Shown here: positions 7,980 through 36,082 of the stretch, piece after piece
How positions within the stretch are numbered: position 1 is the first letter of the stretch
Layout of the letters: each line of letters begins with the position of its first letter
Assembly (NCBI GenBank): GCA_944390725.1
Contig: CALXQU010000005.1
Span: forward strand, 62,001 to 126,000
DNA length: 64,000 nt
Source of the DNA: an uncultured Spirochaetaceae bacterium
GTDB taxonomy: Bacteria; Spirochaetota; Spirochaetia; Sphaerochaetales; Sphaerochaetaceae
Direction of reading: 5' to 3'
Translations under genes and position numbers: made by a program
Notes under the pieces: model-generated
Seen by the model: the letters and a program-made list of their open reading frames with translations, nothing else
Databases searched by the model: none
Told to the model about the DNA's origin: nothing

Positions 7980-9569
7980 TCAGTGCTTTTTCCATATTTC
8001 CTTGAACGTATGGAACCTGCCGCAGTAGACGCAGGCGAAGTGGCCATCGCCTGTCCTGTAGAACGATGCAGGCACGCCTTCGCCGTTGACCGGGTTGGAG
8101 ATGCATGCCTCGTTCGTGCAGCAGAGGTCGTCGAAGTTGTAGATCCTCGGCGGCATGTGCGTGCGGAACTTCTCCTTCACCTCGCCATCCCTGATGATGT
8201 TGAGCGTGCAGTGCGGCGCGACCGCGGCAAGCCTCTTGAGGTCCTTCCTCTCCAGCGGCCTTGCGCCCGGGCGGAAGATGATCCCCTTGTACTTGCCATC
8301 GGATCCCTTCGAGACCCACTCGCCGCCCCTGGCATCATCGAGCCCCAGCACCGATGAGATCAGCCTCATATGGTCGCGGATCGCGCCCGGCTCATCGCCC
8401 TTGCAGATATGGTCGATGACGATGCCCTCATCGATTGGCCTCACGCCTTCGGAATACGTGCGGCTCTTCTTCTCCTTGTTCGGCTCGACCTGGATGATAT
8501 ACTCCTCGGTACGCCTGTCCTCATCATGCTCGCCCGGAACCGGCACGTAGTCATCGCCGATCCTGCCTGCGATCAGCGAGAGGAGCACCATGCGGCAGTA
8601 CATGCCGTTGATGGCCTGCCTCTCCCAGCCATTGAGGTCTGTCTTGTCGAGCCATGTCGGGATGGTCGGATGCTCCTTGTGGCGCGGAAGCGGATGGTAG
8701 AACTTCGTGCCCGGCTTCATCAGCGGGAGGAAGTCCTTCCTGAATGTTATGGCCTCGCGCAGGATATCCTGCTTCTGGAGGATCCTCTCGCCCATCCTCT
8801 CCAGCTGCGGCCTGGTGAAATACCACATCTTCGCCGTGTCGCCAGCCTTGAGATATTCCTCTATCGAGGCGAATTCCCTCACCTCGAAGCCGTTTTCATG
8901 CATCTTCTCCACATAGCTCTCCGGCATCGCAAGCTCCGCAGGCGCGATGAGGTCGACCTTGACATGGTCGAATATCTTGAGGCCATCCGCCTTGGAATGG
9001 ACCGTGCGCCCATGGTACAGGTCGCCTACCAGCGCCACGTGGATGGAATCGAACGACATGCCCAGGTCCTCGAGGAAGGAGAACTCGTCAAGGAGCTCCT
9101 GCGTCGGATGCTCATGCTTGCCATCGCCTGCATTGATGAAGGCCGGGCGGTATGGCAGCCCGTTGCGTGCCGCATACTCAGCGCATTCCTCGGAGAGCCA
9201 CTTCGTCAGGCCCTCGACCTTGCTGCGGACGATGAAGATGCAGTTCGAGTATCCCGAGAGCATGTTGAACGTATCCGCATAGCTCTCGCCCTTGTTTATC
9301 GAGGAGGATGTCGTGAGCAGCTCGGACACCTTCGCATGGTGGAACTTGGCGGCATTGCGGAACGATTCCTTCGTCCTTGTGCTATCCTCAAGGAAAACCT
9401 CATAGATGCCGAAGTCCGGATCATTGATCCTGAACTTGTCCATTGCCTCCTCATCGCCGGCGAGGATCGCCTTCTTCAGCTCATCCACCTTCCTGAAGAA
9501 ATAGCGTCTTTCATTGATTGAGAAATCCTCGATGATGTTAAGCGACCTTGATGCGAAAATATTCGACAT
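7980..9569 (-). CDS. pyrB: aspartate carbamoyltransferase, catalytic and regulatory chains fused (PyrB-PyrI)
   Basis: 529 residues. Residues 1 to about 350 are the catalytic chain, with the carbamoyl-phosphate loop STRTKESF at 63-70, the aspartate-binding region and PLPRHKEHPTIP. After a linker of about 20 residues the last 150 residues are the regulatory chain: VEPNKEKK, IDHICKGDE, and a four-cysteine zinc site CTNEAC...CVYC. In E. coli these are separate proteins; fused forms are known from Thermotoga and treponemes, so this supports a spirochaete. It forms carbamoyl aspartate and is the likely CTP/ATP-sensitive control point. The ribosome-binding site AAGGAG (9575-9580) overlaps the stop of the upstream leader ORF and directly follows the attenuator T-run. 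Confidence 0.95.
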   Translation of the reverse strand: MSNIFASRSLNIIEDFSINERRYFFRKVDELKKAILAGDEEAMDKFRINDPDFGIYEVFLEDSTRTKESFRNAAKFHHAKVSELLTTSSSINKGESYADTFNMLSGYSNCIFIVRSKVEGLTKWLSEECAEYAARNGLPYRPAFINAGDGKHEHPTQELLDEFSFLEDLGMSFDSIHVALVGDLYHGRTVHSKADGLKIFDHVKVDLIAPAELAMPESYVEKMHENGFEVREFASIEEYLKAGDTAKMWYFTRPQLERMGERILQKQDILREAITFRKDFLPLMKPGTKFYHPLPRHKEHPTIPTWLDKTDLNGWERQAINGMYCRMVLLSLIAGRIGDDYVPVPGEHDEDRRTEEYIIQVEPNKEKKSRTYSEGVRPIDEGIVIDHICKGDEPGAIRDHMRLISSVLGLDDARGGEWVSKGSDGKYKGIIFRPGARPLERKDLKRLAAVAPHCTLNIIRDGEVKEKFRTHMPPRIYNFDDLCCTNEACISNPVNGEGVPASFYRTGDGHFACVYCGRFHTFKEIWKKH

Positions 9570-9578
9570 GACAGCTCC

Positions 9579-9674
9579 TTAAAAAAATATGCCGGCTACC
9601 CCGGCATTACGAAATGAAAATGAAACAGTGCCCCAATCTCCGATGGAATAGCCTGCGCAAATCCTTCTCTTCAT
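9579..9674 (-). CDS. pyr operon leader peptide (pyrL-like)
   Basis: A 31-codon ORF from the ATG at 9672-9674, with GAGGTG four bases upstream, to TAA at 9579-9581. It begins MKRRICAGYSIGDWG, passes VSFSFRNAG, encoded by a pyrimidine-rich stretch, and is read straight through the terminator hairpin. Its stop codon overlaps the pyrB ribosome-binding site. In enterobacteria the leader pyrL is likewise translated through the attenuator: when UTP is low, RNA polymerase pauses in the U-rich stretch, the ribosome catches up and blocks the hairpin. The peptide itself probably has no function. The mechanism here is inferred from layout only. Confidence 0.65.
   Translation of the reverse strand: MKRRICAGYSIGDWGTVSFSFRNAGVAGIFF
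9581..9607 (-). terminator. pyr operon attenuator
   Basis: Reading the minus strand: ATGCCGG (9607-9601), loop GGTAG, CCGGCAT (9595-9589), one A, then seven Ts (9587-9581). The T-run abuts AAGGAG of pyrB. A T-rich tract of TTT/TTTT runs (9625-9612) lies immediately before the hairpin, where UTP-sensitive pausing would be expected. Confidence 0.8.
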
Positions 9675-9695
9675 CGTGCACCTCTTCGATTGAAT

Positions 9696-9725
9696 AGGAT
9701 AGCAAATATACAGAGATGTTGTCCA
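9696..9725 (-). promoter_or_regulatory. pyr operon promoter
   Basis: Minus strand TGGACA (9725-9720), 18-bp spacer, TATCCT (9701-9696). Transcription would start near 9689, about 15 bases before the leader-peptide ATG. It lies in the gap shared with the divergent fucO gene. Confidence 0.55.
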
Positions 9726-34717: not shown

Positions 34718-35963
34718 CCTTCCTTCCCCTGATGTACTTCGCCTCCACAGGCATCTCCGCAGACCTGTAGATGACGCTCTCCAGCCTCTCCTCGATGCCC
34801 GGCTGCAGGAGGCGCGAGGCCCTGTCGGCATCCCTGGCGATCACCGCGATGTCGGCATCGTAGCCTGCCTCGAATGACCCTACCTTACCGAAGAAGCTGC
34901 CGCCGCCCTTCGAGGCCAGATAGAAGGCCTCGCTGAGGGAGAGCGGCTCCAGGCTCCCATCCGCGATGCGCCAGTGGACCTTCGATGACTGCACGGCATC
35001 GGAGACCATGCGCAGGAGCGAAAGCGACGACCCACCCGCCACATCGGTGGCAAGCCCCACCTTCAGCCCCTCATCCAGATAGCGCCTCACCGGGGCGATG
35101 CCCGACGCTATGTTGATATTCGATGATGGCGAGTGCGCGACGAAGGCCCCGCGCTCCTTCATCAGCCTGACCTCATCATCGCCGAGCCATACGCAGTGCG
35201 CCATGATGGTCCTCTCCGTCAGGAGCGAGAACGAATCATAGGCATCCGCATAGCTGGCGGAATCCGGGCAGAGCGATGCGACCCACTCTATCTCGCTGAG
35301 GTTCTCATCGAGATGGGACTGGATGGGAAGCCCGTAATCAGCGGCGATCCTGCCCAGTTCCGAGAGGAGGCGGTCGCTGCACGAGGGGATGAAGCGCGGC
35401 GTGATGATGGGCCTGACGGAGGCGAAGCGGCTGCCCTCCTCGATGAAGCGGAGAGTCTCGGATACAGACTCCTCCGTGGCCTCCCTGAGGATATCAGGGG
35501 AGTTGCGGTCCATGTTCACCTTGCCCACATAGCCCGAGAAGCCGGCCTTATCAAGGATATCCATCAGCAGCAGCGTCGTGTCGGCGAAGATGGTGCCGAA
35601 TGCGGATATCCTCGTGGTCGGCGTCCTGAGGAGGTCATCGGAAAATACTTGGTAAGCCTCCCTTGCGAATCCCTCGTCACGGAATGCGGCCTCTATCGGG
35701 AACGTATGCCTCTCCAGCCACTGCAGGAGCTCCTCATCCATGTACAGGCCCATGAAAACGTATTGCGGGGCATGGAGATGCAGGTCCGAGAGCCCCGGTA
35801 TTATAAGGCGTCCTGAATAATCATCGACAGGCAGGTCAGGCCTCCTAGGCGAAACCGCGGCTATCCTGCCGTCCTCAACCGTGATATAGCCGTCCGCGAG
35901 CGATTCGAAGCGGCCGGGCTCCGGCGTCCATATAAGGTCGCCCTTCACTGCAAAAGATCCCAT
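34698..35963 (-). CDS. guaD: guanine deaminase-type amidohydrolase
   Basis: 421 residues from the ATG at 35963, chosen for GGAGGT six bases upstream; the frame extends 20 codons more. Metal-binding motifs of the guanine deaminase/ATZ-TRZ group: PGLSDLHLHAPQY, QSHLDENLSEIEW, AHCVWL, AHSPSSNINIASG and GLATDVAGG. GuaD turns guanine into xanthine plus ammonia for salvage or nitrogen supply. The divergent TetR-type gene across a 119-bp gap may control it. It converges on and overlaps the NYN gene by 20 bp. Confidence 0.85.
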   Translation of the reverse strand: MGSFAVKGDLIWTPEPGRFESLADGYITVEDGRIAAVSPRRPDLPVDDYSGRLIIPGLSDLHLHAPQYVFMGLYMDEELLQWLERHTFPIEAAFRDEGFAREAYQVFSDDLLRTPTTRISAFGTIFADTTLLLMDILDKAGFSGYVGKVNMDRNSPDILREATEESVSETLRFIEEGSRFASVRPIITPRFIPSCSDRLLSELGRIAADYGLPIQSHLDENLSEIEWVASLCPDSASYADAYDSFSLLTERTIMAHCVWLGDDEVRLMKERGAFVAHSPSSNINIASGIAPVRRYLDEGLKVGLATDVAGGSSLSLLRMVSDAVQSSKVHWRIADGSLEPLSLSEAFYLASKGGGSFFGKVGSFEAGYDADIAVIARDADRASRLLQPGIEERLESVIYRSAEMPVEAKYIRGRKVRGSGS

Positions 35964-36082
35964 AAGCACCTCCGGTTCACCGTAGCTGGCTGTTTCCGGC
36001 AGCCTGTAGAGACGCCCGACCATATCTCAGGCATATACGGAATCCTCTTTTATGATATCATCATTCCATCGAGGAGGATACA

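Follow-up and report, generated by a model that had tools for sequence, protein, structure and literature searches.

The pyrimidine biosynthesis operon of an uncultured Spirochaetaceae bacterium is preceded by a short open reading frame (ORF) and a hairpin with a T-run, and the question raised by this locus is whether the two constitute a translation-coupled transcription attenuator. In the enterobacteria, control of pyr genes by translation-coupled attenuation is textbook knowledge. For spirochaetes, a search of the literature (mostly without subscription journals) found no report of such control. The 64,000-nucleotide window analyzed here covers part of the source genome (G000), a 2.08-Mb draft that is 84% complete. 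The operon is read from the minus strand in the order pyrBI-pyrE-pyrF-pyrDK-pyrC, with pyrB and pyrI fused and placed at the head, and the fused PyrBI protein contains the Pfam domains PF02729, PF00185, PF01948, and PF02748. The upstream neighbor of the operon is a divergent lactaldehyde-reductase-like gene, so no transcription is expected to enter pyrB from upstream, nor does the hairpin terminate a gene on that side. The initial annotation of this region had described a promoter, a 31-codon ORF with a ribosome-binding site, a T-rich tract, a hairpin with seven Ts, and an overlap between the ORF stop codon and the AAGGAG of pyrB. Each of these parts was found in its place (Table 1).

Table 1. 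Features of the pyr leader and operon, numbered by position in the window
Feature	Positions	Strand	Basis or detail
-35 element TGGACA	9725-9720	minus	Direct sequence reading
-10 element TATCCT	9701-9696	minus	18-nt spacer to -35; end 21 nt 5′ of leader ATG
Shine-Dalgarno-like AGAGG of leader ORF	9685-9681	minus	Direct reading; Shine-Dalgarno scoring
Leader ORF, ATG at 9674, 31 codons plus TAA (9581-9579)	9674-9579	minus	Peptide MKRRICAGYSIGDWGTVSFSFRNAGVAGIFF
U-rich tract TTTCATTTTCATTT, candidate UTP-sensitive pause region	9625-9612	minus	Reading and family composition
Attenuator hairpin (putative), 7 bp, ATGCCGG (9607-9601)-GGTAG-CCGGCAT (9595-9589)	9607-9581 including T-run	minus	Direct reading
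pyrB ribosome-binding site AAGGAG	9580-9575	minus	Two bases common to leader TAA
pyrBI, fused catalytic and regulatory aspartate carbamoyltransferase, ATG at 9569	9569-7980	minus	NF009916, 802 bits
pyrE, orotate phosphoribosyltransferase	7948-7250	minus	TIGR00336 above cut-off
pyrF, orotidine-5′-phosphate decarboxylase	7250-6369	minus	TIGR02127 above cut-off
PyrD-PyrK fusion, dihydroorotate dehydrogenase and electron-transfer subunit	6369-4699	minus	NF005574 and NF000796 (each matching one half, under curated cut-offs); PF01180
pyrC-like dihydroorotase	4702-3671	minus	TIGR00857, 208 bits, under cut-off

The fold of the whole leader is ordinary (z = -0.46), and its sole strong element is the terminator hairpin. 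This hairpin has a calculated energy of -11.6 kcal/mol and is followed by an A and then seven Ts (9587-9581, minus strand). When the 140 nt upstream of pyrB were dinucleotide-shuffled, the combined hairpin and T-run score of the window was matched by 2 of 1000 shuffles. The open frame of the window is weak evidence by itself, since 57% of shuffles also reach the hairpin. The question of leader translation therefore required relatives, and it is from these that the statistical weight comes.

A PyrBI search in 139 Sphaerochaetaceae genomes yielded 116 pyrB upstream regions, 112 of which have a hairpin with a T-run shortly 5′ of pyrB. The upstream regions were grouped into 71 clusters (<75% identity), among which 67 different hairpin starts were found; shuffling predicts 3.9 such hairpins in 71. 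The structure has thus been kept while the sequence changes. The median hairpin energy in the family is -11.6 kcal/mol, and the terminator lies within the minimum-energy fold of 69 of the 71 leaders. No alternative antiterminator fold clearly competing with the terminator stands out among the 71 leaders folded. The ORF or the hairpin is missing in g22 and in two members of g21. In most genomes the gap between hairpin and pyrB is ∼15-40 nt, short enough that readthrough would be the route into pyrB. By sequence, an intrinsic terminator is predicted to sit between the leader start and pyrB.

For each cluster, candidate starts in a defined stretch ahead of the hairpin were compared by their Shine-Dalgarno (SD) sequence, and the ORF with the best SD-led start was taken, blind to the position of the stop codon. 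This procedure gave 56 clusters with an SD-led start, which serve as the non-redundant leaders; the other 15 clusters were excluded from the statistics. The SD-led ORF extends to 12 nt or less before the hairpin, or past it, in 55 of the 56 leaders (22.1 expected; P = 7e-23), and in 43 leaders the stop codon falls between -12 and +15 relative to the hairpin (8.2 expected; P = 2e-25), both P values being indicative, as the clusters share descent. As a control, 280 starts lying in the other two frames of these sequences were followed, of which 107 reach the hairpin. The sole non-reaching leader is L080, where a GTG start in another frame does traverse the hairpin. Many of the 15 clusters lacking an SD-led start have a weak-SD or SD-less ATG ORF that ends at or inside the hairpin, as picked by eye and post hoc. 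Start codon and hairpin are spaced within a narrow range (73 ± 8 nt). Together with the terminator count of 112/116, the 55/56 figure lends strong support to the core proposal of the initial annotation, namely that the pyr operon is gated by an intrinsic terminator to which a pyrL-like leader ORF extends.

Stop codons lie before the hairpin in 30 leaders (29 of these by 1-11 nt) and in its first 15 nt in 14 leaders, and the remaining 12 ORFs run through it. By position, all of the 56 ORFs except one would bring a ribosome close enough to shield the 5′ arm of the hairpin. An E. coli experiment compared stop codons 28 and 5 bp ahead of a terminator; termination fell from ∼90% at the former to <10% at the latter, and this effect of stop position was abolished when translation was uncoupled (PMC4824070), which gives indirect support to readthrough that depends on leader translation. 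The leader ORF, with its ribosome-binding site, is one whose predicted translation reaches the terminator. The window genome was surveyed over 424 kb for gene-upstream terminators; of the 12 present, that of pyrB is the only one with a hairpin entered by an SD-led ORF. The comparison of relatives that had been suggested as a check thus bears out the core proposal strongly, with one modification; the loose peptide sequence, the hairpin, and the start-to-hairpin spacing are all seen in the family, but an ORF running through the hairpin is seen in only 12/56. Translational coupling to pyrB by a leader stop that overlaps the ribosome-binding site, which had also been suggested, is not general, as only 7/56 stops fall between -15 and +10 of the pyrB start. 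In the sister L004, with a PyrBI that is 96% identical, the leader stop is at -41, 41 nt before pyrB. The overlap is a trait of the window genome and a few others, and coupling as a general feature is unsupported.

A promoter of the form TAGACA/TGGACA-17/18-TATnnT is common to most of the non-redundant leaders and to most genera of the family, and this conservation confirms the promoter assigned by sequence in the window. The conserved -10 box is typically 18-27 nt from the leader ATG, so that the 5′ leader ahead of the ATG must be very short. The leader is predicted to head the pyrBI transcription unit with a promoter of its own.

In 27 close pairs, which are non-independent, the three codon positions have taken 51, 59, and 49 substitutions, an even spread by which translation of the leader, and not the peptide, looks selected. 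A conserved leader peptide was considered and set aside on this negative codon-position test, an outcome that fits a translation-only role. The peptide sequence itself is unlikely to be the signal. A rival reading takes the ORF for a small-protein gene in its own right, closed by a terminator that belongs to it, with pyrB transcribed from another promoter. The stops 1-11 nt before the hairpin in 29 leaders could resemble an ordinary gene end. However, the peptides are unconserved, their codon positions evolve alike, and a ∼15-40-nt gap between hairpin and pyrB, as found in most genomes, is too small for a promoter. Moreover, leaders of different genera occupy this same position ahead of pyrB. 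We give an independent gene next to no probability.

The T fraction is 0.43 at positions -35 to -6 before the hairpin compared with 0.26 at the ORF start (P = 2e-9; 56 leaders), and T is richer before the hairpin than at the ORF start in 51 of the 56. Pyrimidines make up 63% of the last ∼30 nt before the hairpin and 42% at the ORF start. The word TGTTT is present in 29/56 leaders (10 expected), divided over the reading frames as 15, 10, and 4. Its occurrence in all three frames suggests that the word acts as nucleic acid and not through the peptide. By composition and motif, a U-rich candidate pause region adjoins the terminator on its upstream side; the U-richness may reflect something else.

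The tract also bears on amino-acid-specific attenuation, in which stalling at particular leader codons (for example those for Arg or Asp) would set the switch. A mild enrichment of Arg (79 vs 57 expected) and Asp (39 vs 22) in the N-terminal part of the peptides is what such a mechanism could use. Nevertheless, the peptides share no single-codon run and no dominant residue, third-position bias is absent, and the tract is read in differing frames and hence as differing residues. Furthermore, no antiterminator fold stands out, the terminator being in the minimum-energy fold in 69/71 leaders. We regard control by specific amino acids as very unlikely. As a separate observation, leader peptides from distant genera (L065, L073, L076, L005, L006, and L008) contain a stretch resembling DLGPxVF or FLGPxCF, encoded over GGGCCT...TGTTTC, which is possibly a conserved pause sequence.

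The PyrR attenuators of the Firmicutes also regulate pyr genes by transcription attenuation. An RNA-binding protein or a ligand, in the form of PyrR or a riboswitch, might likewise control the terminator studied here, the ORF being incidental, and PyrR does score above the cut-off in five of the 139 family genomes. It is, however, absent from the other 134, and the window genome (84% complete) gave no match above the cut-off, the best being 22.6 bits versus 138. No PyrR-type RNA structure was seen, and an Rfam search of the leader, whose fold is ordinary as described above (z = -0.46), assigned no family. Were the ORF incidental, it would not extend to the hairpin in 55 of 56 leaders. Indeed, even the genomes with PyrR keep a short ATG ORF that ends 6-11 nt before the hairpin. 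Control of this kind is, in our judgment, extremely unlikely.

In the five genomes with PyrR (L069, L078, L083, L085, and L099; L309/L310), pyrR is beside a uracil-permease-like gene, and the leader ORF before pyrB is very short and lacks a Shine-Dalgarno sequence, its ATG coming right after a -10-like box. An NCS2 uracil permease was not found in the window genome.

E. coli pyrBI, measured identically, matches the window in its parts and in their order. Specifically, the pyrBI-pyrL leaders of E. coli and Salmonella resemble that of the window in the presence of a promoter, a Shine-Dalgarno sequence, a short ORF, a T-rich stretch, and a hairpin with a T-run ∼20-30 nt before pyrB. The window ORF also traverses the hairpin and stops beside pyrB, as pyrL does. 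The distance from start to hairpin is 88 nt in E. coli and 67 nt in the window, and the leader has 44 codons in E. coli compared with 31 in the window. In contrast to E. coli pyrBI, most relatives of the window stop at the hairpin base, and pyrB and pyrI are fused in the window and head a larger operon. The peptides are not recognizably alike; the likeness is functional only, the leaders being too short and divergent for descent to be read from them. A further control of pyrBI by reiterative initiation is known (PMC6245113), but the window has no T-run at the inferred transcription start, and this control has no visible counterpart there.

Resemblance to a second E. coli system, the rph-pyrE attenuator, is confined to part of the family. 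At rph-pyrE, translation ends shortly 5′ of a terminator that lies just upstream of the pyr gene. In genera g7 and g10 (L125 and L126), a polysaccharide tyrosine-kinase-like gene similarly lies upstream of pyrB, its stop codon immediately preceding the pyrB hairpin, whereas the window and most relatives have a dedicated short leader ORF.

All of the parts, with their order, spacing, and conservation, are documented in the sequences, as is the absence of PyrR. As PyrR, an Rfam family, and a competing fold are absent and the parts are E. coli-like, the simplest mechanism is that of pyrBI. We consider it likely that the pyr operon is under pyrBI/pyrL-type translation-coupled transcription attenuation, and the pyrimidine-rich tract suggests that the attenuator probably senses UTP. 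Transcription would start just 5′ of the short ORF, judging from the conserved promoter, and a ribosome would load on the leader at once. RNA polymerase would next traverse the pyrimidine- and U-rich tract and then the terminator. With ample UTP, the polymerase would outpace the ribosome, the hairpin would form, and transcription would end before pyrB. With scarce UTP, the polymerase would be slow in the U-rich tract, and the ribosome would catch up and cover the 5′ arm of the hairpin, upon which the polymerase would continue into pyrBI-E-F-DK-C. We infer from the arrangement of the parts that the hairpin terminates transcription, that the ribosome blocks the hairpin, and that UTP is the signal.

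The relation of ORF to hairpin demands only a ribosome, and the allosteric PyrI domain is present. The attenuator could accordingly be coupled to translation without sensing UTP, in which case operon output would follow ribosome availability or growth state, and pyrimidines would exert their control at another level, for example allosterically through the fused PyrI. We think this unlikely, given that a tract of 63% pyrimidine and 43% T lies exactly where pausing would count, that 51/56 leaders are T-richer there than at the ORF start, and that TGTTT is enriched and found in all three frames. A UTP-sensing attenuator remains our preferred reading.

A class-level sample of 297 Spirochaetia genomes was also searched, and 58 further upstream regions were examined. 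Several other Spirochaetia families have a hairpin with an ORF ending at the hairpin; in the single-contig genome G286 (2,843,201 bases), the leader MIYSLITRSCKFCHPRLF has its stop 4 nt before the hairpin. In many other families of the class, pyrB lies directly behind another gene in an operon, with no leader or hairpin. Recurrence of the layout across spirochaetes makes it very probable that these bacteria tune their pyr genes by a race between ribosome and polymerase, in the manner of E. coli and with no repressor protein. Bullifex porci (L167) and Sphaerochaeta halotolerans (L204) are among the named genomes with the layout, and its presence in these cultured genera renders it experimentally accessible. 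The interest of the system lies in the phylum, in the strength of the comparative signal, and in what it implies for transcription-translation coupling in spirochaetes.

The same leader is found in five metagenome-assembled genomes (MAGs) labelled Clostridia or close kin (L183, L184, and L186-L188), and in 5/5 the SD-led ORF reaches the hairpin. Their PyrBI is ∼73% identical to that of the window, and nearer to it than that of Sphaerochaeta is. Horizontal transfer to or from these organisms is likely, misbinned contigs being the alternative. A broader proposal, whose chances we put slightly below even, is that a cassette free of trans-acting factors (promoter, leader ORF, U tract, attenuator, and fused PyrBI) is old and widespread in the Spirochaetia and has moved, along with the gene, between them and gut Clostridia, which would imply that spirochaete ribosomes run close to RNA polymerase at this site. 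This cassette would also exist in a leaderless or very-weak-SD version, represented by g21 and the five genomes with PyrR. At ordinary terminators of the window genome, looked at for signs of runaway transcription, stop-to-stem distances are 3-39 nt (n = 9, too few to discriminate), and the purine fraction of called ORFs in this genome is 0.518.

Two other loci of the window genome that belong to pyrimidine metabolism were inspected. The carA gene has no leader terminator. Upstream of pyrG, encoding CTP synthase (L290, G000:C1:124724-126304, minus strand), there is a leader hairpin GGACG...CGTCC followed by a CTTTTCCTTTTTTT-like sequence a short way ahead of the pyrG start, which makes this leader a second candidate pyrimidine attenuator. 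Elsewhere in the window, a purine riboswitch (RF00167) was detected at 35963-36060 on the minus strand with a score of 55 bits.
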